Below are positions 15,907 through 51,062 of a stretch of 64,000 bases of DNA, piece after piece. The stretch is from Endotrypanum monterogeii (Eukaryota > Euglenozoa > Kinetoplastea > Trypanosomatida > Trypanosomatidae): NCBI GenBank assembly GCA_000333855.2, contig CM007329.1, positions 80,923 to 144,922 on the forward strand, in the 5' to 3' direction. The position numbers were made by a program, and so were the translations under genes. Each line of letters opens with the position of its first letter. The stretch's first letter is position 1. Under the pieces are notes generated by a model. It ran no database searches and was not told the DNA's origin. It saw nothing but the letters and a program-made list of their open reading frames with translations.

Positions 15907-16005
15907 AAAAGAGGCACACGAAGAGGCTGAATAAATAGCGCTGCGCTGCTCCCAGCTGAATGCCACGCCCCTCCGAAGTCTGTGGCATCGCTCTCGCCCC
16001 CTCCC

Positions 16006-16036
<31 letters not shown>

Positions 16037-16616
16037 NNNNNNNNNNNNNNNNNNNNNNNNNNNNNNNNNNNNNNNNNNNNNNNNNNNNNNNNNNNNNNNN
16101 NNNNNNNNNNNNNNNNNNNNNNNNNNNNNNNNNNNNNNNNNNNNNNNNNNNNNNNNNNNNNNNNNNNNNNNNNNNNNNNNNNNNNNNNNNNNNNNNNNNN
16201 NNNNNNNNNNNNNNNNNNNNNNNNNNNNNNNNNNNNNNNNNNNNNNNNNNNNNNNNNNNNNNNNNNNNNNNNNNNNNNNNNNNNNNNNNNNNNNNNNNNN
16301 NNNNNNNNNNNNNNNNNNNNNNNNNNNNNNNNNNNNNNNNNNNNNNNNNNNNNNNNNNNNNNNNNNNNNNNNNNNNNNNNNNNNNNNNNNNNNNNNNNNN
16401 NNNNNNNNNNNNNNNNNNNNNNNNNNNNNNNNNNNNNNNNNNNNNNNNNNNNNNNNNNNNNNNNNNNNNNNNNNNNNNNNNNNNNNNNNNNNNNNNNNNN
16501 NNNNNNNNNNNNNNNNNNNNNNNNNNNNNNNNNNNNNNNNNNNNNNNNNNNNNNNNNNNNNNNNNNNNNNNNNNNNNNNNNNNNNNNNNNNNNNNNNNNN
16601 NNNNNNNNNNNNNNNN
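16037..16616. other. Assembly gap of 580 N
   Basis: An unbroken N run begins exactly at the end of a TA repeat and ends before a C homopolymer. The size, unlike the 20-N gaps elsewhere, looks like an estimated length. Confidence 0.98.
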
Positions 16617-16741
16617 CGTGTTCTCCCCCCCCCCCCCCCACCAACTCAGTGTCTATTTTTAAGCGTGTGTGTGTGTGTGTATCTTTTGCTGCTCCTCTCA
16701 CGGGTACACGTTATGAGGATACACTCGTACACATCCCCCTC

Positions 16742-16777
<36 letters not shown>

Positions 16778-18751
16778 GTCTTCTTTCCAACTACAACCCC
16801 ATAATTTCGCTTGTTTATTATGAGTACTCAACATGACTGTGTGTCTGTGCGTTTGTCCTTTTTTTTTTTTTCGGGTATTCCTCTTTCTCCATTCTCTGTC
16901 GCTATATCAACTTTTTTTCTCCCCACCTCTCCCCCGCAAATCTCTTTATCAATCCTTCCAACTCACAAACACACACACACACACATAAATTTATGTGTTT
17001 GTATTTGTGTTTGTGGAGGCGTGTCGTGGTGATGATGGTGACCTTTTTTCCCGATCCTTCTACCCCTTCTCTCTTCTTTTTCCACAGGAATAATGCATCA
17101 TCTCCCATTGCTCCATGTTGGTGTTTTTTTCTCGAATCACCACATAAATTGTATGCAAACCTCAACCTTGCTCTTTCAAACCTCTCATGATGGGCTCTTG
17201 CTCCGTCCTGTAACCAACGCTTCTGCCTTTATATGTTCATGTGTTTGTACGTGTGTGTGTGTGTGTGTGTGTGTTGGTTTGTGTGTGTTTGTGTGTGGCC
17301 CCGGCAACGCCAGTCATGTATGACACTAAAGATCGAAGGCTTATGTATGTATACATATATACATACGTCTGTGTATGTGGGTTTTTTTGCCTTAAATGGC
17401 CACTACTGTAATTCGAACATTCTTTTTGAATATGTCTACGCCTCCCACCCCACTCACACTCTCACCTACCTACCCCCCGCACACAGTCCCTCCTGCACCC
17501 ATCGTGCACGACCCTTCCCTTTCCCCCTTAGGGAATGTACGTATTCTTCTTTCTCCTGGGACCCCCACCTGCCCTTTGCACTACCAACAAACAATCGTGT
17601 TTGCATCCATGTGCAAACACCACATTTCACGGCCATTTTGCGTCCATCACGTGTATCTAGAAAAGGTAAGAGGATGGCCAGAGAGGTGCGCGTATCTTTA
17701 GAGGACTCCCAAAACGAAAGGGAAGAAAAATGGGGGAGGCGCTCGGGAGGAGTCGAGTATATATATATATGTCTAGTATATATGTATATATATATATATT
17801 ATATATATGTGTGTGTGTGTGTGTGTGTATTCGATTCGTTTTTTAATGACATCGTTTTCCTTCCTCCAGCGACCGGCAGCGTAAACAAAGTGTAAGTGCC
17901 TGAGTTTTAGGTGTCCTATAGAAAAGAGGACTCCGTCTCCTCCTTCCCCCCCCCTCTCCCCTACTGCTCTACATTATCCCTTTTGCTTCAGCGGCGTCAA
18001 GCTTGTGTTCGTAGGGATCTGTCTTGCGACGCACACACACCATCATCACCGCTTCTCCATCCCCTCCCCCCCCCCACACACCCACTCCATCCCCGTCTCT
18101 TCCTTGCCCCTTTTTTATTATTATTTAACCCCACAATCAGTTCTTGTGAATGCGCATCACGCATATATATATATATATATATATATGGTGAAGAGGTGGT
18201 TGAACAGTCGAGGAGAAGAGGGGCGGTAAGTTAACCGAACGGTGATGGGCACTCAAGTTGCCCCCTCCCCCCCCCTCCTTAACGGGATGGCAAGGAGTCT
18301 GAGGACACACACTTACAAAGGGGGACGGAAAGGCAAGCCAAACAAAAAAGGGAATGTGGTGGGGGTGGAAGAGAGGGAGGGCTTTGTAGAGCTCGCAAAT
18401 GCGAAGATATACAGCCCTTCCTGCTCCTGCACCTCACACCATCGCTCCTCCTCTTTTTTTTTTTTGAAGTAATCTCTCGGTATCGGCATCCCATCAATCT
18501 GTATGCGTGGTGACCACGCTGGTCTCCATCGAGGGAAGGCGTAGAAGCGACTTGGAAGAAGAAAAAAAAAAGGAGGAGAGGGAGGCAGTGCTTCCCCCAC
18601 CCCATCCTTCTCACACAAAGTACAAACGATGGCACTTGAGTGCCCCCCCCCCCTTCCCCTTCCCCTTCCCCTCCACTGCTACCACGGCAATGAATTTTGC
18701 TCTCCTCTGTGTCCCTCAACTGACCTCACGCACTTAACCCCACCCTCCTTT

Positions 18752-28838: not shown

Positions 28839-31409
28839 ATGCAGGAGAATCAGCTGCAAAAAAGCAGCTGCGACTCCAGCCTCTCCGCTTGTATGAAGTC
28901 GAATTGTGCCAAAGCAATTGTAGTGGACCAAGAGGATGTGGGTTCAGAGACGTTCAAGATGGGCACAGGTAATGGAAACCCCCAAGATATCGGCGTCGGT
29001 GGCGGTGGAGGGGGCACAAGCTTTGTCAGCAACTCCCCCCTCACTTCTAGCTCAGGCGGTAGCGTACACGAAGCCCAGCCAACGCATCTGGCGGCGCCCG
29101 TAACAGCGGCGCCACTCGGGCTGCTCGTCTCCGGTTTGAACGAGACTCTGGACCGTGAACAAGCGCAGGTGTACCACACTGGGAGCAAAGAGCTGGAAAT
29201 ACACACACCAGCCCCAGCAGCCCCACCACCCCCTCGGCTGCATCCCGTCGCCGGTGACACCACCGGGGCTGCTGGGACTGCGTTTAGCCCGAGGTCAACA
29301 CGAATCATGCGCCTCGATCCAGCTGCCAACGCGTTACCTCCCTCGTCGGGTCCTGTAGTCGAGCCTCGACACACGCTGCGTCTCCACACCTCCGCAGCCG
29401 CATCTCAGCCACGCTCTGAGATGCAACGAGTGCTAATCAACTGTAGCGAAGAGGAGGACGCGCCCCCCTCCAAGCGGCTGCGTTCATCCCTTGACAAGCC
29501 CTCTCCCTCTGCATCTACACCCTCTACAGCAACAACACCTAAGGCTCCTACGACCACAGTAGGCGGTGACAGCGATGGCGGTCGCCGCGTCTTGCAGCTG
29601 TCGCTTCCGATCAGGAGCCCCGCACCGACGGGCACGGTGTCGAACAAGGACCCTACCGCCATGCCACCTACTTCCCCTGGAGGGGGTTTGGGTGATGACG
29701 CCGATGTAGCAGACACCCACGCATCCGAAGAGTCGGAAAACCCGACCAACGCTCAAGAGAAAATGCTACGGAAACCTAACACCCCCGGTGACTACACCGT
29801 TGCTGCCGGATCACCACCGCCACCAGAGAACGCGGCGTTTCGGCCACCGCCGATTTTCGCTGGGGCCACTTCGCGTGCCGTCCCGGACAACGCGTCAATT
29901 GAGGATTCGGCTGTAATGCAGCAGCAACTGAACCGGCCGACGGCGTCAAATGTCAACCCGTCCTGCCCAACAGGGGTAGGCATCTTCCCGCGTCTACGCT
30001 CACTCACACCCACGCCGTACCCTGGAGGGCAAGGGTCTCCCTGTCGGCGTCACCGCTTTGCCGGGGTCAACCTACCCAGTGCCCCGCCGCCGTCCATTGA
30101 CTACGGATCCATTCAGCGCACGGCAAAGGAAGTCTACGAAGTGCACGAAAAACTTAGCGAGGGAACGTACGGCGAAGTGTTCAAGGGCGTCGATAAGCGC
30201 ACCGGCGCTGCAGTGGCGCTGAAGCGTCTCAAAATGTTGTCCACACATCAAGGCTTTCCACAGACATCGCTACGGGAGGTAATTGCCCTTCGACATATTC
30301 AGATCCAGCGCGAACGGCTGGAGGAAAAACTGAGCAAGGATGCGAGTCACCGCGGCTCGGAGGTCGTCACCGACCCTTTGGCCGAAGTATCACAATTGTG
30401 TGATGTTCTCATTTATGATCGACAGCAGCGCGACATCGTGTTGGTGTTTCCCTATGCGACCGCGAGCCTCGCTGGTTTGTGTCGCCGCCAGTTCGCCTTC
30501 ACGCCGTCGGAGATGGCCTACCTCATGAAGAAAATTATGGTTGCTGTGCGCAAGCTGCATGAAATGCGCATCATTCATCGCGACATAAAATCAGACAACG
30601 TGCTAGTGACGAGCGATGGAGAGGTGCAGCTGACTGATTTTGGGCTATGTTCCATCTCCTCATTCGGGACGTCGCGGTCTGGAGGGCAAGTGTGGAGAAC
30701 ACCGAGTGTGATCACACTCGCCTACCGCCCGCCAGAGATGCTTCTGGGGAGCACCGCGTACGATGACAAGGTCGACATATGGTCAGTGGGGTGCCTGCTT
30801 GCTCAGATGTACCTTTTGGAGCCCCCTTTCTATAAGCACCGCACGCACGCGCAGCAACAGCAACAGCAGCGTACATCAGAACGAACGGCAGCTACGGAAC
30901 TAGAGCAACTCTCCCGTATCACGGAGATCCTAGGGCCGCTGCCGCCAGTGCGTGTGTATCACCCCGACTCGTGTCAGCACATGCGTCTTCTGGAGCAATT
31001 GGAGATGCAGGGGCGCCAGGCGGAGTCGGGGCGGGCTGCACAGCCGGCGAACTGGGGTAAACTACAGACCATCTTCGAGCCTAGCTTCCTTTATCAGCAG
31101 TTTCATGGCTTTCGGGGGTGGTTCGAGGCGGAGCTACAGCGCTCGCGACACCAGCTTCACCGTCGGCCCACCCAAGCTTGCATGGACGTTCTGTGTGCCA
31201 CTCTGCAACTTGACCCACAGCAACGCCCCACCGCGGCAGAGCTGCTCCGCATGCCGTACTTCACAACCCTAGACGACGCTCCTCTCCTGGGCAGCTATCA
31301 GCGACTTCTACCCATTACCCCAGAGCGGGAAGCGGAAGTGCGCCGCGGTTTTATGATCAAGGTGCAACGCGGCGGAGACAGCCATACCCAACGCGCTCCG
31401 CATAAGTAA
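28839..31409 (+). CDS. Cdc2-related protein kinase (CRK/CDK-like), long form
   Basis: The 856-residue product has about 430 N-terminal low-complexity residues (Pro/Ser/Thr/Ala) followed by a CMGC kinase domain at about 433-811. Visible elements are the Gly loop LSEGTYGEVF, the catalytic lysine in VALKRLK (Lys462), a PSTAIRE-equivalent helix FPQTSLREV, the HRD motif IIHRDIKSDN (580-582), DFG (600-602) and an activation segment ending TLAYRPPEMLLG. RPPE rather than RAPE is typical of transcription-linked CDKs (CDK9/12 group), so a role with a cyclin in RNA polymerase II phosphorylation or mRNA processing is possible, as known for long trypanosome CRKs such as CRK9 and CRK12. Insertions lie after helix C and in the C lobe (Gln-rich, near residue 670). 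All catalytic residues are present. I cannot assign the CRK number. Confidence 0.85.
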   Translation: MQENQLQKSSCDSSLSACMKSNCAKAIVVDQEDVGSETFKMGTGNGNPQDIGVGGGGGGTSFVSNSPLTSSSGGSVHEAQPTHLAAPVTAAPLGLLVSGLNETLDREQAQVYHTGSKELEIHTPAPAAPPPPRLHPVAGDTTGAAGTAFSPRSTRIMRLDPAANALPPSSGPVVEPRHTLRLHTSAAASQPRSEMQRVLINCSEEEDAPPSKRLRSSLDKPSPSASTPSTATTPKAPTTTVGGDSDGGRRVLQLSLPIRSPAPTGTVSNKDPTAMPPTSPGGGLGDDADVADTHASEESENPTNAQEKMLRKPNTPGDYTVAAGSPPPPENAAFRPPPIFAGATSRAVPDNASIEDSAVMQQQLNRPTASNVNPSCPTGVGIFPRLRSLTPTPYPGGQGSPCRRHRFAGVNLPSAPPPSIDYGSIQRTAKEVYEVHEKLSEGTYGEVFKGVDKRTGAAVALKRLKMLSTHQGFPQTSLREVIALRHIQIQRERLEEKLSKDASHRGSEVVTDPLAEVSQLCDVLIYDRQQRDIVLVFPYATASLAGLCRRQFAFTPSEMAYLMKKIMVAVRKLHEMRIIHRDIKSDNVLVTSDGEVQLTDFGLCSISSFGTSRSGGQVWRTPSVITLAYRPPEMLLGSTAYDDKVDIWSVGCLLAQMYLLEPPFYKHRTHAQQQQQQRTSERTAATELEQLSRITEILGPLPPVRVYHPDSCQHMRLLEQLEMQGRQAESGRAAQPANWGKLQTIFEPSFLYQQFHGFRGWFEAELQRSRHQLHRRPTQACMDVLCATLQLDPQQRPTAAELLRMPYFTTLDDAPLLGSYQRLLPITPEREAEVRRGFMIKVQRGGDSHTQRAPHK

Positions 31410-32920: not shown

Positions 32921-35647
32921 ATGCGCGCGTCCAAAAGAAAAGGAGAGGGTCCAACGGACGTCGCTTCTTCGTGCGACAATGGCGATGATGCGCCGTGCAC
33001 CAGTGCCGACGGTGATGGCGTCTCCTCTCCGGATAGGGTTGTCACCTCACCAAGCTCACAAACAATCGTGAACTCACCCACCGTCCGCCTTTACCTTCAG
33101 CACTCACGTAACAGCAGCACTGTCTTCCCACGTCGCGCCTCTATCCAGCCCCAAAGCTCTCTCGGTACGACGCAGCCGGTGCTACCGAAGAGCTTTTACC
33201 TCATTTCTATTTTCACCTTGTTGTGTGTGTTGATGATACTTCTGAGCATCCTTGTGCCAATGATGGTGATCCACAACGCCGCAACTAGTCGCTCTGTCGC
33301 GCTTCGCGAGTATGAATACAGCACCTCGGTTGAATGGGTGACAGTGCTGCGTAATGTCATGATCGACGGCCTCGCCGCTGGACGCGCGTTGGAGGGCTAC
33401 GCGATAAGCGCCTTCCCCGATCTGCAATCAACAGGCGCGGTATCGAGTGCGTCACGGAGCGCTAATGTTTCCAAGCACCTGAACATCTTCACCTATGTTG
33501 CGTCTCTGCTGTCTTCCAAAAGACCTGCCGTGGCGATGCAGGCCATCTGCCCTGGTGGGGTTATCACCACGATGCACCCCTTCGACAAGAAATCCGTCAA
33601 CCGAGACCTGCTGAATGCATCGGACCCAGCGAACCAATACAGGCCCACACCAATGGAAACCATCGAGTCAGGTCGCTACTCAATTGTTGGCCCACGGCGC
33701 AGCACAATTGACTACCTTCGCGGGATATGGGTCCTCATCACACGCATACCTATATACAAAGACAACAAAAGCAGCGGTGTTGGTGGCAGCACTGCGCTTC
33801 GCTCGCTGGAAAACTTTTGGGGGTTTGTATTTCTACTCGTCAACGTGAGCAAAGCCATTGATGTGATTCAGCTGCACACAATGGCCAGGAACGACAGGCT
33901 GAACTACGTCCTCTATGACAATTCCACTGACTCAGGCGGCATAAACGTGATCGCATCGACATTACCACCGGCCACAACGCAAGAGGTGTACAACGAATTT
34001 ATCGCCGACAGTACTGTATCTTATATTCTGTCGCGCCACTCCCCGCTCCGCATCGCGGTGCGCTCACGTGAGAGCTACACCTCACTCACGCCCGCCAACG
34101 TAACCAGCATCGTTTTATGGACCCTTTTCGGGGGACTGCTGCTGCTCGGAGTAGTCATCGCAGTCGTTCTGTGGTGCACGCAGGAATACAATGCGGCAGC
34201 GCACGCACCCAAGATGACGCCTTTCACCATGCTCACCATCGGCCCACGCCGCGGTGAGGAGCTCTGGGATCTTGCGGCAGAGCAGATGGCTGAGGTGACG
34301 GAACGCCTCGATCGGCTGCTGGAGCGGCAGATGGTTCGGCATCACGCCTACCAAATCCAGCAGGTGCACCCGCTCACCACGTCCTACGTCACGCGCAGCG
34401 TCGCGACCGCCGTGCAAATGGCATTCAGTATCATTGAGGAGCTGCAGCATCACCCCATCGACGATCCACTGCGACGGCTGCTCGGTGATGAAGGAAGCTT
34501 GTTAATGAGCTACGCCGTGCACTGGTGCACCGACGCTACCGTGCGCGTGGAATCTCTAGAAGGGTCCTACCGCTACGAGGGTCCCGACGTAGTCTTCGGT
34601 GGCCGTATGTGGGCCTTCGCTGCACCCGGCGTCGTGACGGCGTCCGAGGCGGTGGTGCAAGCGCTCACGCGCTGCGGCATGGGCAGCGTGGACGCGTGTC
34701 CCTTGCGTACTGTCCATGTGCTGCGATCACGATCGCTCTGTGCAGTCACCAATAAAGAGAGGCGTAGAACCGATAGCGCATTTCTAGCCACTATTCGTGT
34801 GCCTTACTCAGCCCCCACAAAAATTGGGGCGATCGCTGGTATGCATACCCGCAGTGTCGACCTCCAAATTTCGTCACCTGTGGGCAAAGACGAGCTCAGC
34901 GGTACTGACAGTGAGGAGACACTGCCCCCACAAACCCTCTTCACGCTCCTCGACACGCGCCGCTCTGGATTGGTAATGGCTGCGGCTTCTGCCCCGCGCA
35001 ACCTTGACGAGATTTCCCCTGCAGCTCACCCCGACTTCTCTATGGCGACTGCCGCCGTCAGCAGTCCCGAAGCCGGCCGTACTGTGTCACGAATGTCCTC
35101 CTTCGGGACAGGTAGCTGGTTTGCGCGGAGGAATACAACTCCCGCGAGCCCAGAAGTGCACAGATCCACTTCATCTCCATTTAGCCATCAAAAAAAAGAA
35201 TCTACTTTTCTCCATCCGCTGACACTAACAGAGCCGCTGCCAGGCGCACCAAGTGTGTTGAATCTGAGATTACCCAACTCCAAGGCTGCGGCACGGCGAA
35301 AAAATATCCCCGTCTTCCAGGGAGATGCTGTCACGCGCGCACTGCTGCAGCCCCTCATTCCGCAGTCGCTGGACATCGCCCTTCATACCGCCTTCTCGCA
35401 ACAGTTTATAGCGCTCGAGGTACAATACAGCGAGGTGCGTGTGCTTGTCTATTATTTCTACGTCAGCTACAAGATCCTATTCCGCCCACTGGCTGCGCCG
35501 GAGCGCCATAACATCTTTCGCCGCCTAGTGACTGCCTTTGGAGTGCCGCAGCAGCGCATCCTTGAACACCTTGCCGCCCGCTGCGCCATTCAACTCGTAC
35601 AAAAAGTTCAGCGGCGCGCCATGTGGCATCGGGATCGAGTCTCATAG
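32921..35647 (+). CDS. CHASE-like receptor with degenerate nucleotide-cyclase-like domain, copy 1
   Basis: The 908-residue product is a type-II-entry, two-pass membrane protein. A Ser-rich cytosolic N-terminus leads to TM1 (about 89-117), an ectodomain of about 275 residues, TM2 (about 394-416) and a long C-terminal part. The ectodomain has the CHASE-domain pattern: CPGGVITTMHPF, a Gly/Pro block (GRYSIVGPRR), RIPIYK and NFWGFVFLLVN in the right order. CHASE domains are extracellular ligand sensors of cyclases and histidine kinases. After TM2, residues about 433-586 follow the class III cyclase order (strand-helix-LW..., helix, IQQVHPLTTSYVT, YRYEGPDVVFGGRMW) but lack the two metal-binding Asp positions, so catalysis is unlikely. 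A C-terminal module (about 806-900, VRVLVYYFY and YKILFRPLAAPE) is shared with the next gene. The domain calls come from reading patterns. Confidence 0.72.
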   Translation: MRASKRKGEGPTDVASSCDNGDDAPCTSADGDGVSSPDRVVTSPSSQTIVNSPTVRLYLQHSRNSSTVFPRRASIQPQSSLGTTQPVLPKSFYLISIFTLLCVLMILLSILVPMMVIHNAATSRSVALREYEYSTSVEWVTVLRNVMIDGLAAGRALEGYAISAFPDLQSTGAVSSASRSANVSKHLNIFTYVASLLSSKRPAVAMQAICPGGVITTMHPFDKKSVNRDLLNASDPANQYRPTPMETIESGRYSIVGPRRSTIDYLRGIWVLITRIPIYKDNKSSGVGGSTALRSLENFWGFVFLLVNVSKAIDVIQLHTMARNDRLNYVLYDNSTDSGGINVIASTLPPATTQEVYNEFIADSTVSYILSRHSPLRIAVRSRESYTSLTPANVTSIVLWTLFGGLLLLGVVIAVVLWCTQEYNAAAHAPKMTPFTMLTIGPRRGEELWDLAAEQMAEVTERLDRLLERQMVRHHAYQIQQVHPLTTSYVTRSVATAVQMAFSIIEELQHHPIDDPLRRLLGDEGSLLMSYAVHWCTDATVRVESLEGSYRYEGPDVVFGGRMWAFAAPGVVTASEAVVQALTRCGMGSVDACPLRTVHVLRSRSLCAVTNKERRRTDSAFLATIRVPYSAPTKIGAIAGMHTRSVDLQISSPVGKDELSGTDSEETLPPQTLFTLLDTRRSGLVMAAASAPRNLDEISPAAHPDFSMATAAVSSPEAGRTVSRMSSFGTGSWFARRNTTPASPEVHRSTSSPFSHQKKESTFLHPLTLTEPLPGAPSVLNLRLPNSKAAARRKNIPVFQGDAVTRALLQPLIPQSLDIALHTAFSQQFIALEVQYSEVRVLVYYFYVSYKILFRPLAAPERHNIFRRLVTAFGVPQQRILEHLAARCAIQLVQKVQRRAMWHRDRVS

Positions 35648-36411
35648 ATTTCTCTTCACGCATGCAGGTATCGCTACAACTGACCGCAAGCAAACAAAAA
35701 TGGGAGCCAGGGGGAGGGGAGGGGCAGGTCCCTGAGCATCTGCGAGCCGTGAGGTAGAAGGAAGCACAGTAAGGCGAAGAACAAGGGATACGTTAGCACA
35801 ATAACACAAACAGAGCCCCTTCCCACAAAAACAAAAAAAATAGTGATGTATATATATATATATATATAGTTTTGTTATTTTTATTCAAGTACAAACCGCT
35901 ATGGGGTCTCGCACCCTTCTCTGCTCTTAGCCCTCTGTCCCCATCCCGTGAGGGGTAGGGACGGAAGGGGCTGACCTTTTTTCTAATTTTTGCCACCGGT
36001 ATTGCTGGCGACGGATGAGTTGTTATACGACCACCTAAGCGTTCATAAAATAGTTTTGATATGCTAGGGCTCGCACGACATGGGAAAAAAAAACTGTGTT
36101 GACGCGTGCATATACACTCACGTGCGCGTTCTTTGCATAAACAATTGTGTGATCATGTTTAGTATGTATAATATATATATTATATTGCATGTGGAGAGAG
36201 CGTAGGGAATGCGATACTCTGCATTGTCGTCGCTTTTTTTTCTTCGAATACTGACAGCCTATTCACGGCCCCTGCTAACGTAATCTTGCTCTCCCTCTCT
36301 TTTTTTTTTTTTCGCGTGTCTATGCCCTTATGTGTATGTGTGGTATATATTCTTTGCCCATCCAGTAACCTTTGTATGTTTCTGCAATTATGTATGTACA
36401 TATATACACAC

Positions 36412-36446
<35 letters not shown>

Positions 36447-37184
36447 CGTGGGTGCGACGGCTACCTCTGCTTCTTCTCATGACGGATGAGATCTGCACAC
36501 AGAGAAGAAGAGGGGGAGCTTTGCACTCCACCCCTCCCCAGCCTACGTCATAAAATCAATCTTTTCTCCCTGCTCGTTTGGGCAGAGGGAAAAACACTGG
36601 ATACTTCAGACGATGGTGCTTGAAGCCTACGATGTCCCCCCTCCGACCCTCTGTATTCTCCCCGTCCCCTCCCTCCCCCCACATGCGCATATATATATAT
36701 ATATATATATATAGTGTGTGTGGTCCTCCTCAAAACCCTCACTTCCTCATTTGCCACACGCGCCGATAATCATCCCCATACCCCCCCCGGGAAGCAAGCG
36801 AGTCCGCCTGCAATCTTTCCCCCTCCCCCCTTCATTATTGTACACCCCTTCTTCACACACCAGTTGCTTCCCCCCCCCCGTTCGTGCACGTTGACGTCTC
36901 CACACCATCTCCCGCCCCCTCCACCATCACACTCTTCCGCGCCGGTGGAGTACACGTTGATCACATCAATTTAAGCATAAAACCCTCCTGGAACTACTGA
37001 CAAGCCCCTCTGGAGAGGCGGTGGGTATATTTCTATTGTGTACTGTCGTTGTAATCCGAAGATATATACACGTATATTGTATATATATATATGCATACGT
37101 GTGTGTGTGGGGGGCGTGTATGGACCTACACGTGTGTTCCTGAATCCATTATTTAGCCCACACATACAAAAAAAAATTTCAATA
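35648..37184. other. Intergenic spacer between the two CHASE receptors
   Basis: No gene is supported. It holds TA repeats (35848-35868, 36413-36435, 36690-36714, 37080-37092), TG repeats (36435-36446), T runs and several C runs at 36780-36940. It is not a copy of the spacer upstream of receptor 1, so only the gene body appears to have been duplicated or retained. Confidence 0.55.
36911..36950 (+). promoter_or_regulatory. Predicted spliced-leader acceptor for CHASE receptor 2
   Basis: A C/T-rich tract at 36911-36939 precedes the first AG at 36949-36950. The 235-base leader would contain short upstream ATGs, for example in the TA/TG stretch near 37090-37120. Confidence 0.4.
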
Positions 37185-40100
37185 ATGTTTCACACCTCCA
37201 CCGGCAACTCTGCCGAGGATGAACAAAACAACAAACGCCACGCGAAGAAATACCGCGTCTACCTCATCGTTCTTGCTATATGGGTCGCCATGTTGCTCAA
37301 CCTGTTCACGATTCTCACGCCTATCCTAGTCATGCAGCGCAATGATAGCAGACTGCAACACGAATATCAAAACCAGGAGAAGTTACTGGCGAACGCACTC
37401 GCGACAAACTTCCGTGATGCCATCCTCGAAGCCATAGCAGCCGTGTACGGGGTGGAGGGATACGTTATGGGTATGATGAAGTCGCTGCCGAAGCTCGATA
37501 CAAGCGCTGCCGAGCGGATGGAAGGGCAAAGCTTCCCAAAGCTGTATGACTACACGCAGTTGCTAGCCTCCACCTCGAAAAATGTTGATCTATTCGCCAC
37601 TGCACCAGGAGGCGTCATACTCCAGGTGTACCCAATAGAGGAGGAGTTGCATCTGAAAGGTCTAGATTTCTTCAAGGACACCGCAAGTAGCTTGCCCCTG
37701 GAAGGCCAAACACCATTGCACCGAAGAGACCTGCACCGCATCATCCGAACAGGAAATCTGACCCTGATAGGGCCGTACAGAAAATCAGACTTGACGCTCG
37801 TGAATGGGGTGAGAACCTCGAAGGAGCCACAGGATGGCTGGTGGGTGGAAATCCTTCAGCCTATCTACAACGCGACCCCCGATGCAACAATCTCAAAAGA
37901 AACGTTTTGGGGATTTGGCATGGTCCTCCTGAGCGCGGATCGCCTCATGTCAAACAACGGCTTTCCACACAAGATAGAGAGCGAGGACATGGACTTCGTC
38001 ATCTACACAGGCGACGATTTCCCTAACGAATGCCGGGTGATGCTCACATCAGCCAAGTTCACTGGCGAGACCGAGTGCAGCGCACCCCCCATACAGGACT
38101 TCCTCAGCGACGCCACAACCCGCGACGTCCTCCGAGTGCAGATCTCGTGGAAGATTGCCTTGAAGAGCAAGAAGCGGGTGAATAAACTGACTAGTGGTGT
38201 GCGTAACGTCATCATCTCTTCATCCGTTGTCTGCGTCAGCATTCTTTTAGCGCTTTGCATATTTGCGATTGTGCGGTGCACGAAGGTGTACGATGGAACC
38301 CTGTATGCGCCACGAATGTCCCCTTTTGCCATGCTCACCATCGGCCCACGCCGCGGTGAGGAGCTCTGGGACCTTGCGGCAGATCAAATGGTCGAGGTGA
38401 CGGAACGCCTCAGCCGTGTATTGACTAGGGAAATGGTTCGCCATCACGCCTACCAAATCCAGCAGGTGCATCCGCTCACCACGTCCTACGTCACGCGCAG
38501 TGTTGCGACCGCCGTGCAAATGGCATTCAGTATCATTGAGGAACTCCACAACGCCCCCATCGACGATCCACTGCGGCGCCTGCTCGGTGATGATGGGAGT
38601 CTCCTCATCTCCTACGCCGTGCACTGGTGCACCGACGCTACCGTGCACGTGGAGGTAGCGGGTGGAGGGTACCGCTACGAGGGTCCCGACGTAACGTACG
38701 GTGGCCGCATGTGGTTGTTTGCTGCACCCGGCGTCGTGACGGTGTCGCCTGCGGCGCTGCCCAGTGCAGCGCGAATCTCGCATGTAAAAAGCAAGCTGTT
38801 CGACTCTGTGTTCCTGCGCGGTGTCATGACTCGCCAAGATCTCTACATCGTCACAGATACATCGAACCATCGTTTGAAGGAGGCAGAAATATTTGCTACG
38901 CATCAGGTGCGTCGTGCGCGCCAAGCGCAGCTGCAGTACACCACTGACAAGAGAAGAGAACAGAGCACCGAAAGCAATAGCAGCAGCAGCACCAGCACCA
39001 GCAACCACACACACCGAAATCGACGGCACATTTCTATGCAGCGGTCTGGGCACGACAGCACCGACCTGGACGGTAGCTCTGTATTGGAACGGGTTGTTGT
39101 CACGCCCGGTGCCGATGTTGCATCGCCGGGCACTGGCAGCTGTAGTGAGTCCTCGGTACACCTGAGGTGTAGAACCTCAGCGTCAGCGGCAGCCTCCAAA
39201 AGGGCGACCTATGACGATGGGTGTATGGGTGTCTGCGGTGTACCCACGGCCATTGTCGTTCCAGCCACCACGACCGACATCCCGTTGACGGGGAAGGCGG
39301 TGGAGATGGAGACGGTCGACCCGTCGGTGTCGTTCCTCCAACCCGCCTCAGCGGCAACAACGCCTCCCCTAACGAACGGCACTCTCCGCTCACGTCGCGG
39401 GCAACACACCAATGGCTGCGCTGTCGCCGTCGCTCACTGCATTCAGCACCCCGAACTGCTTCCCATCAACCCATTGGTTGTCGTCCCGCCGTCGACCACC
39501 GTGGCTACAGTGGGACATCGACTGAGCGGTGGTGCCAGCGGGGGCGTCGTCAGCGGCTCCGCCTCCGCCTCCGCCTCGCTCAGCTCCGACGAATCGTTAT
39601 CAGCGCGGCATGGCAACGCACTTCCGGCCTGCGCAAACGACAACCCACTTGCGCACGACATGAATGTCATAGCAGTAGCCACGAGGACTGGCGCAGTTGT
39701 TGGGAACACGAATGGTCCGACGGGAGAGGGTGGCCGATGCGTCACCGGCAATACGCTCTACACCACCACGTCTCCAAACAATAGCGACTCCGACTCTGGG
39801 ATGCAGAGAAGTGAGTTGTTTATGGATAACCTCAGCAGTGACCTACTACTGCGCCCCGCAATCTCTGCACAGTCAGATGTACTACTGCGCTCGGTGTTCG
39901 ACCGACACGCTGTGGCGCTGGATGTGAGCTATGACTCGGTGCGTGTGCTTGTGTACTACTTCTACTTTAGCTACAAGATCTTGTTCCGCCCTCTGGCTGC
40001 GCCGGAGCTGCATAATATCTACCGTCGCCTGATGGCCTCCTTCGGCGTGCCGCATCAAGGTATTCTCGAAAACCTGGCTGCGCGCTGCGCCATCCGATTT

Positions 40101-40232
40101 CTCCAACGGCATGAAGAAAGGCAGACTCTGTTGTGGGATCAGCAGCACCGGCTGCAAGCGCACACGCGGTTGGCAAGCGCAAGCACGTCACCCAGCTCGG
40201 ACTCAGATAGCGGCACAGACAACACCCAATAA
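37185..40232 (+). CDS. CHASE-like receptor with degenerate nucleotide-cyclase-like domain, copy 2
   Basis: A 1015-residue tandem paralogue of the preceding gene. TM1 is at about 24-50; the ectodomain (about 55-340) shows a clearer CHASE pattern than copy 1: DLFATAPGGVILQVYPIEEE, then LHLKGLDFF, RTGNLTLIGPY, WWVEILQPIYN and TFWGFGMVLL. TM2 is at about 341-363. The cyclase-like region (375-522) is almost identical in protein and DNA to copy 1 and likewise lacks the metal-binding Asp residues and the catalytic Asn/Arg pattern of active trypanosome cyclases. A 360-residue Ser/Thr/Val-rich linker follows, with runs of Ser and Thr, and then the conserved C-terminal module (about 885-975, VRVLVYYFYFSYKILFRPLAAP). 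A role as a signalling scaffold or cyclase partner is inferred. The start is ATG 37185; upstream in-frame sequence is microsatellite translation. Confidence 0.75.
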   Translation: MFHTSTGNSAEDEQNNKRHAKKYRVYLIVLAIWVAMLLNLFTILTPILVMQRNDSRLQHEYQNQEKLLANALATNFRDAILEAIAAVYGVEGYVMGMMKSLPKLDTSAAERMEGQSFPKLYDYTQLLASTSKNVDLFATAPGGVILQVYPIEEELHLKGLDFFKDTASSLPLEGQTPLHRRDLHRIIRTGNLTLIGPYRKSDLTLVNGVRTSKEPQDGWWVEILQPIYNATPDATISKETFWGFGMVLLSADRLMSNNGFPHKIESEDMDFVIYTGDDFPNECRVMLTSAKFTGETECSAPPIQDFLSDATTRDVLRVQISWKIALKSKKRVNKLTSGVRNVIISSSVVCVSILLALCIFAIVRCTKVYDGTLYAPRMSPFAMLTIGPRRGEELWDLAADQMVEVTERLSRVLTREMVRHHAYQIQQVHPLTTSYVTRSVATAVQMAFSIIEELHNAPIDDPLRRLLGDDGSLLISYAVHWCTDATVHVEVAGGGYRYEGPDVTYGGRMWLFAAPGVVTVSPAALPSAARISHVKSKLFDSVFLRGVMTRQDLYIVTDTSNHRLKEAEIFATHQVRRARQAQLQYTTDKRREQSTESNSSSSTSTSNHTHRNRRHISMQRSGHDSTDLDGSSVLERVVVTPGADVASPGTGSCSESSVHLRCRTSASAAASKRATYDDGCMGVCGVPTAIVVPATTTDIPLTGKAVEMETVDPSVSFLQPASAATTPPLTNGTLRSRRGQHTNGCAVAVAHCIQHPELLPINPLVVVPPSTTVATVGHRLSGGASGGVVSGSASASASLSSDESLSARHGNALPACANDNPLAHDMNVIAVATRTGAVVGNTNGPTGEGGRCVTGNTLYTTTSPNNSDSDSGMQRSELFMDNLSSDLLLRPAISAQSDVLLRSVFDRHAVALDVSYDSVRVLVYYFYFSYKILFRPLAAPELHNIYRRLMASFGVPHQGILENLAARCAIRFLQRHEERQTLLWDQQHRLQAHTRLASASTSPSSDSDSGTDNTQ

Positions 40233-47810: not shown

Positions 47811-50800
47811 ATGTCTCGAATACCCGCCATGCTAAGCCACCATTCGGCCTCCGCCTCCGTTGTGTTGTGGAATAGTCGTCGTGGCTGCGCCTGTAACAGA
47901 GCCCTCACGTGTACACGAAGAACCCTCTTCACCGCAACTCGAGTGTGCCCATCGAGGAGCGGCGGCGTCAGCAGCAGCGGGTACGACAACGACGGTGGCA
48001 CAATCCAGAGCAGCTCAACAGCAGTCTCGTTCGACGACCCCGTACACTTTCATGGCTCTTACATGCGCCAGGGCAACAAAGAAAACGGATCCAGCACTTC
48101 TGCGCCAGCACATTTCGTGGAGGCGCCTCCGGCACCACCCTCACAACCCCCCGCATCACCGGAGTCACCCTTGGACATTACCACAGAGGAATGGACCGAG
48201 CTCCAGCACTACCTTTGCCACTCAGGACAACTCAGCTCGACATTGCCACTGTCGACCCACAAAGATGCACAGATGCGCTCAACTGTGTCTACGTACGACG
48301 TCGGCCAAACAGCAACAGTAGTTCAAAATATTCCACACAGTGGTGTCACCTGGGACGGCCAACTTGCATGGAGATCATCAGCGTCACCGCTGGTATCGTC
48401 TGTTGATGCTGCAGAGCTCGCGAGTGATCTCGCAGAAGAGGCGGCTGTGATGAACAAAGACCCTTCCGCTTCGTTGAAGCAAAATTTGGGGCCGGAGAAT
48501 ATGATGATGGAGAGCAGACTGCAAGGGCGTCATCAATGCAACCCTGGTGTCGAGTTCGGGGACGACGCCGAGTGTGATGAACAGTTGCTGGCCTCCCTAA
48601 GGGGACACCATGTGCGACTTGAAAACACCCCTGAAGTCGTGCTGCCGCCGTCGCTGGCTATACCTGACAAGAACGGGCAGGTGGCTAAGATAACACCGCC
48701 GACCCTGCACAGTGAAACAGAAGACAACATAACACCCGCCTCGACTGTGACAACGACAGACAGTGACTTGGTGGCCGCGCCGCAACCAACCGTGCACTTC
48801 CTTCATCGAAACAGCTATTTGACACGGCAGGATCAACTGTACCTCGGTGCTTGCACGGCGCGAGAAGCGCAGCTGCGTCCACCTGATGCCATGCAGACAT
48901 CCGCACTATTTGCAAGCTCACAGCGCCACGACCGCAGTATCATTGTCGTCTTCTCCTCCACTGACCTACGTGTGCACGACAACTACCTCTTGGCGCTCGC
49001 CTCCATGCGGGCCAGAGCAGTAGCCACGGAAACAGGAAAACCTGTTTCTGTCATCGGTGTTTGTGTGCTCGACTATCGCAGTTTTGCACAGCCAAGCGTG
49101 GTCGGTGGATTTTTCCGTCAGAGTCCGATGCGGGCGCAATTTTTGTTAGACACGGTGGCTGCCCTGCGCCGCGAACTAGAAGAAAAGTTGCGTGTACCCC
49201 TCCTCGTTCGCTGTGGTAGGCCAGAGGAACATGTGCCTCGTCTGGCCGTTGAGCTGGGGGCGATCGATGTTTTCATGACCACTCAGTATGCCCCACACGA
49301 GAGACGCGTGCAGGCCCTCATGATCCGTCGACTCCGATCAGGGACGTGGATTTCGCGTGAGGCGGTGGATGAGACAACTGTGGTGGCGAGTGCGGTGGGA
49401 CCAGGAGGTCTGGCAGCAGCACGGTATGATGCACCTCGTGACCCAACAGCGGATGAAGACGACATACAGCCAATCGCCGTCATTGAGCACGCTAGCCTCG
49501 GTGTCTCCTCACGGCACCCATACCACCATGGTCACAGCTCTCCCCCCGACTGTCAGAGAGGGACAGCTCCCCCTGTGGTGCACAGTGTCTGGCAGTCGAC
49601 GCTGGTGCACCTTGACGATCTAGCGACACCGCTGGCGTCTATGAAAGAAGGCGAGCGGTGGTATCACGACGACGTCACGGTGAGCACTATCCGGCCGACC
49701 GATCCGTATGACAAAGCAACTTCGCTGCTGTCGGAGCTGCCTCTCACCTGGCGAACAGCTGCCTTGCTTCCTACAGAAAGTGAGCGGAGCGGGCGGACGC
49801 GGACCTCGGTACTGAGAGGAGCGCTTCCCACGCTCGAAGACCTTGGCTACATTGCCGCTGCCGCCCACGGGACGGACTTTGCCTTCGAGGAAGTGATCGC
49901 CACCCAATCCTCCGGCCCAGAAGCGGGAGAAAGTGCGGCACTGGTTCGCCTGCAGGACTGGCTGGCCCAGGGCGGGATGACGTCGCTGCTGCGCTACGGA
50001 CGCGAACGCCGCACCAACACGAAGATGTACTCTCAGAAGTTGGCACGTGTTTCGCCGTACATTGCAGTTGGGGCCCTATCCCCGCGGAGGTATTACGAAG
50101 TTCTGCGACAGTTCGCCCATGAGAATCAACGCGATGCCTTTGTGCAGCAGCAGTTCCGTGAGGGATTGCTTCGGTTGTCTCGACGGGATCACTGGCACTG
50201 GATGGGACTGCGTTACGGCGACCGACTCTTTTTCTCCTACGGGCCGCACCCCGAGCACACAGACGACGTGGCAGACTGGCGCCATGATAGGAAGGTAGTT
50301 CAGCGCTGGTGCGACGGACTAACGGGCATCCCCTTTGCAGATGCGGCCATGCGGGAGTTGGTGGGGACAGGCTTCGTCGCTCACGAGGGGCGGCAGGCTC
50401 TGGCATGGCTTCTCACGCGTGGCTACGGACAAGACTGGCGCCTCGGCGCTGAGTGGATGGAGCGCTGCTCCCTCGATTATGATCCGTTTGTGTGTTATGG
50501 CAACTACGCATACAGCTGCGGGCTTATACTAGACGATTTTGGCGAGCCTGTCCGCAACGTCCACTACCTCGCTCACCAACACGATCAAACTGGTATATAC
50601 GTCAAGAAGTGGCTGCCGCAGCTGTCCAAAATACCGCCGGTCTACATCCATCGACCACACGTGCTGACGGCGCGTATGCAAGCGATGCATGGGGTACAAC
50701 TTGGCACGAGCTACCCTTACCCCCTCAAGCTGTGGCAGGGGGCCCAGCACACCCTCTCCGCTGCTGAACTTACGGCCTACTACCCGAAGGGCATCGTGAA

Positions 50801-51062
50801 GGGCCCCGGATACGCGGAAGCCGTGCGCTACGGCAGTGCCATGTTGCAGCCCGAGGAATATAACGCTGCGGTTTCACCCGCTTACCTACAGCGACGGCAA
50901 TGGGCGACAATGCTGCCAGCCTCGGCCTTTGCCGATCTGGAGATGGGCGACGAAGCGGCGGTCCATCTGACCCGTGTGGTGGATGCAGCAGCAGCACACA
51001 AGTGTGTCGTCCCCGCCACCTCTGCACCTCCAGAGCTTCTCTCGACGAGGGCCTCCGCTTAG
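47811..51062 (+). CDS. CRY-DASH-like cryptochrome/DNA photolyase
   Basis: Flavoproteins of this family repair UV pyrimidine dimers (CRY-DASH mainly in single-stranded DNA) or sense blue light. The 1084-residue product has about 370 low-complexity N-terminal residues with a basic, Ser/Cys-rich start that could be an organelle presequence. Next comes the Rossmann-like antenna domain (from about 376, SIIVVFSSTDLRVHDNYLL), and the FAD-binding domain from about 700, with RLGAEWMERCSLDYD (near 877), a YGNYAYSCG stretch and YVKKWLPQL. The AGESAALVRLQDWL block, the order of motifs and the KYGRRIF-like RYGDRLF stretch are DASH-like. Odd point: the usual L-x-W-R-[DE]-[FY] helix reads LSRRDHWHW (about 789-797), replacing its Trp by Arg. 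ATG 47829 is an alternative start. Confidence 0.88.
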   Translation: MSRIPAMLSHHSASASVVLWNSRRGCACNRALTCTRRTLFTATRVCPSRSGGVSSSGYDNDGGTIQSSSTAVSFDDPVHFHGSYMRQGNKENGSSTSAPAHFVEAPPAPPSQPPASPESPLDITTEEWTELQHYLCHSGQLSSTLPLSTHKDAQMRSTVSTYDVGQTATVVQNIPHSGVTWDGQLAWRSSASPLVSSVDAAELASDLAEEAAVMNKDPSASLKQNLGPENMMMESRLQGRHQCNPGVEFGDDAECDEQLLASLRGHHVRLENTPEVVLPPSLAIPDKNGQVAKITPPTLHSETEDNITPASTVTTTDSDLVAAPQPTVHFLHRNSYLTRQDQLYLGACTAREAQLRPPDAMQTSALFASSQRHDRSIIVVFSSTDLRVHDNYLLALASMRARAVATETGKPVSVIGVCVLDYRSFAQPSVVGGFFRQSPMRAQFLLDTVAALRRELEEKLRVPLLVRCGRPEEHVPRLAVELGAIDVFMTTQYAPHERRVQALMIRRLRSGTWISREAVDETTVVASAVGPGGLAAARYDAPRDPTADEDDIQPIAVIEHASLGVSSRHPYHHGHSSPPDCQRGTAPPVVHSVWQSTLVHLDDLATPLASMKEGERWYHDDVTVSTIRPTDPYDKATSLLSELPLTWRTAALLPTESERSGRTRTSVLRGALPTLEDLGYIAAAAHGTDFAFEEVIATQSSGPEAGESAALVRLQDWLAQGGMTSLLRYGRERRTNTKMYSQKLARVSPYIAVGALSPRRYYEVLRQFAHENQRDAFVQQQFREGLLRLSRRDHWHWMGLRYGDRLFFSYGPHPEHTDDVADWRHDRKVVQRWCDGLTGIPFADAAMRELVGTGFVAHEGRQALAWLLTRGYGQDWRLGAEWMERCSLDYDPFVCYGNYAYSCGLILDDFGEPVRNVHYLAHQHDQTGIYVKKWLPQLSKIPPVYIHRPHVLTARMQAMHGVQLGTSYPYPLKLWQGAQHTLSAAELTAYYPKGIVKGPGYAEAVRYGSAMLQPEEYNAAVSPAYLQRRQWATMLPASAFADLEMGDEAAVHLTRVVDAAAAHKCVVPATSAPPELLSTRASA

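Follow-up and report, generated by a model that had tools for sequence, protein, structure and literature searches.

A window of 64,000 nucleotides from Endotrypanum monterogeii (contig CM007329.1, positions 80,923 to 144,922 of the forward strand; coordinates below are those of the window) carries a head-to-tail pair of open reading frames (ORFs), designated copy 1 and copy 2. Each of them probably encodes a two-pass CHASE-type sensor coupled to a dead class III cyclase domain that signals without making cyclic AMP (cAMP). This reading was built on gene structure, CHASE homology, the cyclase fold of a predicted model, the loss of catalytic residues, and conservation, all established computationally. 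In the proposed layout, the N-terminal tail would lie inside and lead into a first transmembrane (TM) stretch; between this and a second TM stretch, an ectodomain of the CHASE type with a tandem PAS fold would face the outside or a lumen. The part beyond the second TM stretch consists of a class III cyclase domain that is catalytically dead, a long and probably disordered linker, and a C-terminal module of conserved helices. Of greater interest than the CHASE domain itself is the conserved dead cyclase that follows it.

The cyclase-fold domain and its active site

In the predicted model of copy 2, residues 371-576 adopted a class III cyclase fold, and the profile alignment placed the six active-site positions at Gly387 (first metal Asp), 426 (Lys), 433 (second metal Asp), 497 (Asp of YDYYG), 504 (Asn) and 508 (Arg). 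In alignment A1, whose 33 rows comprise both copies and 31 of the 39 related proteins found, the first metal Asp was replaced by Gly in all 33 members, the Lys by Gln in 30 (Val, Thr and Pro in the others), the second metal Asp by Thr in 30 (Gln, His and Asn in the others), the YDYYG Asp by Arg in 31 and Leu in two, and the Asn by Val in 32 and Thr in one. The Arg was kept in 33 of 33, and the family-specific residues H480-W481-C482 and D484 were likewise invariant. Eleven further members, namely the eight relatives left out of A1 and three later ones, were examined at the active site only and had regained no catalytic residue, two of them being fragments that cover the last three positions only. 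Altogether, five of the six catalytic positions were lost in all 42 members covering them and the Arg was kept in 44 of 44; by comparison, 119 cyclases were invariant at all six positions except for one Glu in place of Asp at the second metal site. With losses on the metal side as well as on the base side of the catalytic set, the domain would be unable to serve in the usual manner as one or the other half of a split cyclase.

Several points weigh against this reading. The real cyclase profile alignment scored 43.5 in hhalign, and two of 100 column shuffles scored higher, although these alignments spanned just 5 or 32 columns at the end of the profile and the next best shuffle reached 30.3. 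PF00211 was not among the 25 of 27 families listed for the 33 members at E<=1, and the cyclase assignment thus rests on the fold and the profile comparison. Furthermore, the active-site residues were paired by eye from the profile alignment rather than from superposed coordinates, the predicted structure covers copy 2 only, and data on interaction, localisation or activity were looked for and not found.

As to how such a protein would work, we infer that a small ligand most likely binds the ectodomain and that the ligand-induced change travels via the TM helices to the pseudocyclase. This domain would then signal without cAMP synthesis, most plausibly in that it pairs with active receptor cyclases, displaces them or retains effectors. 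Searches of the organism's own genome (30.7 Mb in 44 contigs, with the window on contig C9) using PF00211 and RAC-B of L. major (P0079) gave as candidate partners a single receptor-type cyclase frame on contig C36, a cyclase on C28, which is presumably of the globin type, and a weak match on C5. The tandem RAC-A/RAC-B cluster known from Leishmania had no counterpart among the matches in this genome, where repeats may be collapsed in the assembly. The C28 cyclase (L002 169-2205) reads HCTDAT at the place of HWCTDAT in copies 1 and 2, and this likeness may be relevant to where the pseudocyclase came from. Because trypanosome receptor cyclases are described as requiring dimerised catalytic domains (PMC10470820, PMC6027212), a dead partner could raise or lower the activity of a live one. 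We put forward only tentatively the fuller model in which a conserved pseudocyclase, driven by the CHASE sensors, pairs with active receptor cyclases and so tunes cAMP signalling, with the ectodomains diversifying for different ligands and gene conversion keeping the module uniform.

It is conceivable, at a rather low probability, that the pseudocyclase instead serves independently of other cyclases as a nucleotide- or metabolite-binding switch for the C-terminal module or for a bound effector. The strong constraint on the domain, its new invariant residues and the conservation of the C-terminal helices beyond the long linker would suit such a switch; against it, the C-terminal module matched the cyclase tail weakly in hhalign (E 0.0056 over 29 columns; one of 100 shuffles higher).

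The CHASE-type ectodomain

The earlier note on this DNA had described a tandem pair of CHASE-like receptors, each with an ectodomain between two TM stretches, and this architecture was borne out. With a 19-residue Kyte-Doolittle window and a cut-off of 1.6, exactly two hydrophobic stretches flanking the CHASE-type ectodomain were detected in copy 1 and copy 2 alike. The CHASE order of motifs that it had recognised was also located in both proteins, as CPGGVITTMHP (PGGVI at 211), PIY (277) and FWGF (299) in copy 1, and as APGGVILQVYP (PGGVI at 141), PIY (226) and FWGF (241) in copy 2. Its TG-x-L-x-GP block was loosely worded, as the strings are TGNLTLIGP in copy 2 and SGRYSIVGP in copy 1, but G190, G196 and P197 of the block were invariant or nearly so across the 33 members of A1.

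The Pfam search that it had proposed gave a divided result. For single sequences, CHASE (PF03924) reached 13.6 bits in copy 2 against a gathering cut-off of 25, which is a detection threshold and not a structural definition, and did not match copy 1; neither copy was named above a cut-off by Pfam or NCBIfam. PF03924 had no match over the organism's own genome, and nothing relevant was retrieved from the PDB sequences by phmmer with copy 2 or by a profile search with A1. At the profile level, homology was detected. A1 used as a profile retrieved, among 40 matches, a bacterial PAS-domain protein carrying PF03924 (P0045, 2.5e-7), whose alignment takes in APGGVI, GP, P-x-Y and FWGF and extends across most of the ectodomain. 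A hidden Markov model of the ectodomain matched 10 of 674 six-frame ORFs from 79 bacterial loci and none of the reversed decoys; by our reading the 10 ORFs represent six genes (four fetched twice), all six at places above the PF03924 cut-off, and classical CHASE loci such as L065-L067 were unreached at E<=10. When the family was aligned with an independent set of 12 CHASE sequences (AHK4, PcrK and ten bacterial loci picked by Pfam), none of which had been recruited by the family profile, the match (probability 82, E 1.1e-5, 119 columns, score 47.0) was, as a sequence comparison, clear of its controls, namely 50 shuffles (maximum 19.9), the reversed ectodomain (E 0.47) and the cyclase part (E 0.59). 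A CHASE set including recruited sequences, and hence not independent, gave E 5e-14, and single AHK4 and PcrK fragments aligned weakly in hhalign (E 0.016 and 0.075). The copy 2 ectodomain was modelled by itself, since cyclase matches took up the whole fold search with the full-length protein; the predicted model displayed a long N-terminal helix and, as anticipated, PAS-like units in tandem. Taken together, profile-level homology supported the assignment of the ectodomain as CHASE-type. A generic double-CACHE sensor, as distinct from CHASE proper, appears unlikely, since the sequence profiles select PF03924 proteins and align to independent CHASE sequences, and PGGV, GP, P-Y and FWGF match up with those of the bacterial P0045.

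At the position of AHK4 Asp285, which we take to be a ligand-contact residue, Asp was present in 0 of 33 members (ungapped offset), with Thr at the T301 position in 7 and Phe at the F304 position in 8; a cytokinin ligand is therefore not predicted, and cytokinin sensing was rejected as a candidate. The proteins thus differ from the CHASE domain of Arabidopsis AHK4 (3T4J, 3T4S), and Pfam found no histidine kinase domain in copies 1 and 2. The AHK4 numbering was anchored on T301, F304, R305 and K297 as used in PMC1863423. Paralogues may differ in this respect. Dictyostelium ACG shares the placement of CHASE ahead of a cyclase domain, between two TM stretches according to PMC1863423 and with a single one according to PMC10470820; it is described as an adenylyl cyclase, and the comparison is one of published descriptions.

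Family, naming and evolution of the modules

All named proteins among the 39 relatives were from trypanosomatids, indicating that copies 1 and 2 are real genes; the closest named relative of copy 2 over residues 1-560 was that of Porcisia hertigi (68%). Members from T. brucei or T. cruzi were absent among the 39 and the 40 matches, but scoring was confined to the 7,996 and 7,997 candidates with the most shared words, so that the absence is unproved. Trees of the 33 members resolved three ectodomain groups (A, B and C), with copy 2 in type A and copy 1 in type C. A third copy of type B was sought in the window and the own genome and not found, so that this genome yielded two copies versus the three of L. 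major (LmjF.09.0320/0330/0340; PMC7400496). P0016 of Lotmaria passim combines a type B-like ectodomain with a cyclase module 92% identical to that of the type A protein P0013 and is possibly a recombinant or a misassembly.

The family is already known. UniRef names 25 of the 39 relatives "CHASE domain-containing" and one "Nucleotide cyclase, putative" (hand count over names as listed), and by place and sequence it is the same family as the Leishmania chromosome 9 "putative adenylate cyclase" genes treated, with gene conversion, in a 2020 paper (PMC7400496). The earlier note was right in proposing a second sensor family, as it was about CHASE. The two highly conserved regions reported in PMC7400496, 336-510 and 721-806 of XP_003858708.1, fit the cyclase and C-terminal modules of L. 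donovani P0026 (HAPK at 351, LAARC at 803), provided that P0026 is XP_003858708.1. The main text of PMC7400496 contains no word starting CHASE, domain or transmembrane and likens the genes to receptor cyclases, from which they differ here in lacking the catalytic residues. Trypanosomatid receptor-type cyclases (GRESAG4, RAC-A/B, TcAC), as described in the literature (PMC10470820, PMC6027212), resemble the family in general layout, with a variable ectodomain joined to a conserved class III domain and some C-terminal region, and in their multigene organisation; they mostly have a Venus-flytrap (periplasmic-binding-protein-like) ectodomain, one TM stretch and an intact active site, whereas copies 1 and 2 have a CHASE-type ectodomain, as the earlier note had held, with two TM stretches and a dead site. 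Searches of the open-licence literature listed no paper that calls the family CHASE or notes the lost catalytic residues.

That the members are, in line with their published name, active nucleotide cyclases whose active site is unusual is quite improbable. The class III fold, the invariance of Arg508 and of several novel residues throughout the 33 aligned members, and the 2020 annotation would favour activity; against it, no member covering these positions retains either metal Asp, the Lys or the Asp that read the base, or the Asn, so that the domain matches neither C1, the metal-binding half of a split cyclase, nor C2, the base-reading half, and the name was drawn from the GenBank description of one homologue (PMC7400496). 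"Adenylate cyclase" is thus probably a wrong name, and the members are probably CHASE-pseudocyclase receptors.

Copies 1 and 2 were 39% identical over 516 columns, unevenly so (19% in the ectodomain, 81% in the cyclase module), with the border between the diverged and similar parts just after the second TM stretch. Between copy 2 and its relatives from T. melophagium, Phytomonas and one further source, the module was 48-60% identical and the ectodomain 24-27%, so the dead cyclase domain is the better-kept part. Decaying receptor cyclase genes, which the lost catalytic residues might suggest, are hardly credible given open frames in several genera and a dead domain more conserved than the ectodomain.

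Four-fold sites were saturated between the two ectodomains (8/28 identical; chance ~0.29), and 59/71 were identical in the cyclase modules and 17/30 in the C-terminal modules. In the cyclase tree, types B and C paired by species in L. major, L. mexicana, L. tarentolae and L. martiniquensis, and also in L. enriettii (support 89/82), and two B-like copies of Leptomonas pyrrhocoris were identical. These results agree with PMC7400496, which reports gene conversion in L. donovani and others. For the window pair, the amino-acid cyclase tree kept types A and C apart, and recent conversion between copies 1 and 2 is therefore suggested by synonymous sites only.

Genomic setting and significance

Table 1. 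Coordinates of the two receptor genes and their parts within the window
Feature	Position	Strand	Basis or remark
Copy 1 ORF, ectodomain type C (groups with L. major P0029)	32921..35647	+	908 amino acids, ORF call
Copy 1 first TM stretch, residues 86-123	33176..33289	+	hydropathy
Copy 1 CHASE-type ectodomain, residues 124-390	33290..34090	+	33-row alignment A1; profile and fold evidence from family and copy 2
Copy 1 second TM stretch, residues 391-424	34091..34192	+	hydropathy
Copy 1 pseudocyclase module, conserved part, ~residues 425-579	34193..34657	+	offset from copy 2
Copy 1 conserved C-terminal helical module, ~residues 805-892	35333..35596	+	offset from copy 2
Copy 2 ORF, type A (groups with long-branched Trypanosoma melophagium and Phytomonas members)	37185..40232	+	1015 amino acids
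Copy 2 first TM stretch, residues 22-51	37248..37337	+	hydropathy; within one long model helix 10-97
Copy 2 CHASE-type ectodomain, residues 55-330	37347..38174	+	profile and predicted-fold comparisons
Copy 2 second TM stretch, residues 337-369	38193..38291	+	hydropathy and predicted model
Copy 2 class III cyclase-fold domain without catalytic residues, residues 371-576	38295..38912	+	predicted fold, profile alignment
Copy 2 linker, low confidence, probably disordered, residues 600-891	38982..39857	+	predicted local distance difference test (pLDDT) <50
Copy 2 conserved C-terminal helical module, residues 885-972	39837..40100	+	alignment A1, predicted model

Directly upstream of copy 1 lies a protein kinase ORF (28839-31409, PF00069), which, going by its place, is probably CRK12. 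Since LmxM.09.0310 of L. mexicana is CRK12 (PMC7902614) and the L. major family members are LmjF.09.0320-0340 (PMC7400496), the genomic place of the family looks conserved relative to Leishmania. Elsewhere in the window, a cryptochrome/photolyase family protein with a long N-terminal extension was identified at 47811-51062 (PF03441 and PF00875), and an ORF call at 15960-16823, in a low-GC part, crosses a long run of N, either masked sequence or a gap, and does not count as evidence for a gene.

To our knowledge, little is understood of how Leishmania senses its surroundings. The natural ligands of T. brucei receptor cyclases are likewise described as still unknown (PMC6027212). Databases already list the family and its domain name; the searches of open-licence papers did not bring up the pseudoenzyme reading, and the mechanism outlined here is a proposal. 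The pair points to a little-studied family of signalling receptors, which, being small and conserved and having a ligand-binding type of ectodomain, offers a tractable receptor candidate. Renaming its members from adenylate cyclase to pseudocyclase alters what experiments should seek, and the diversifying ectodomain set against a homogenised output module provides a clean example of modular receptor evolution.
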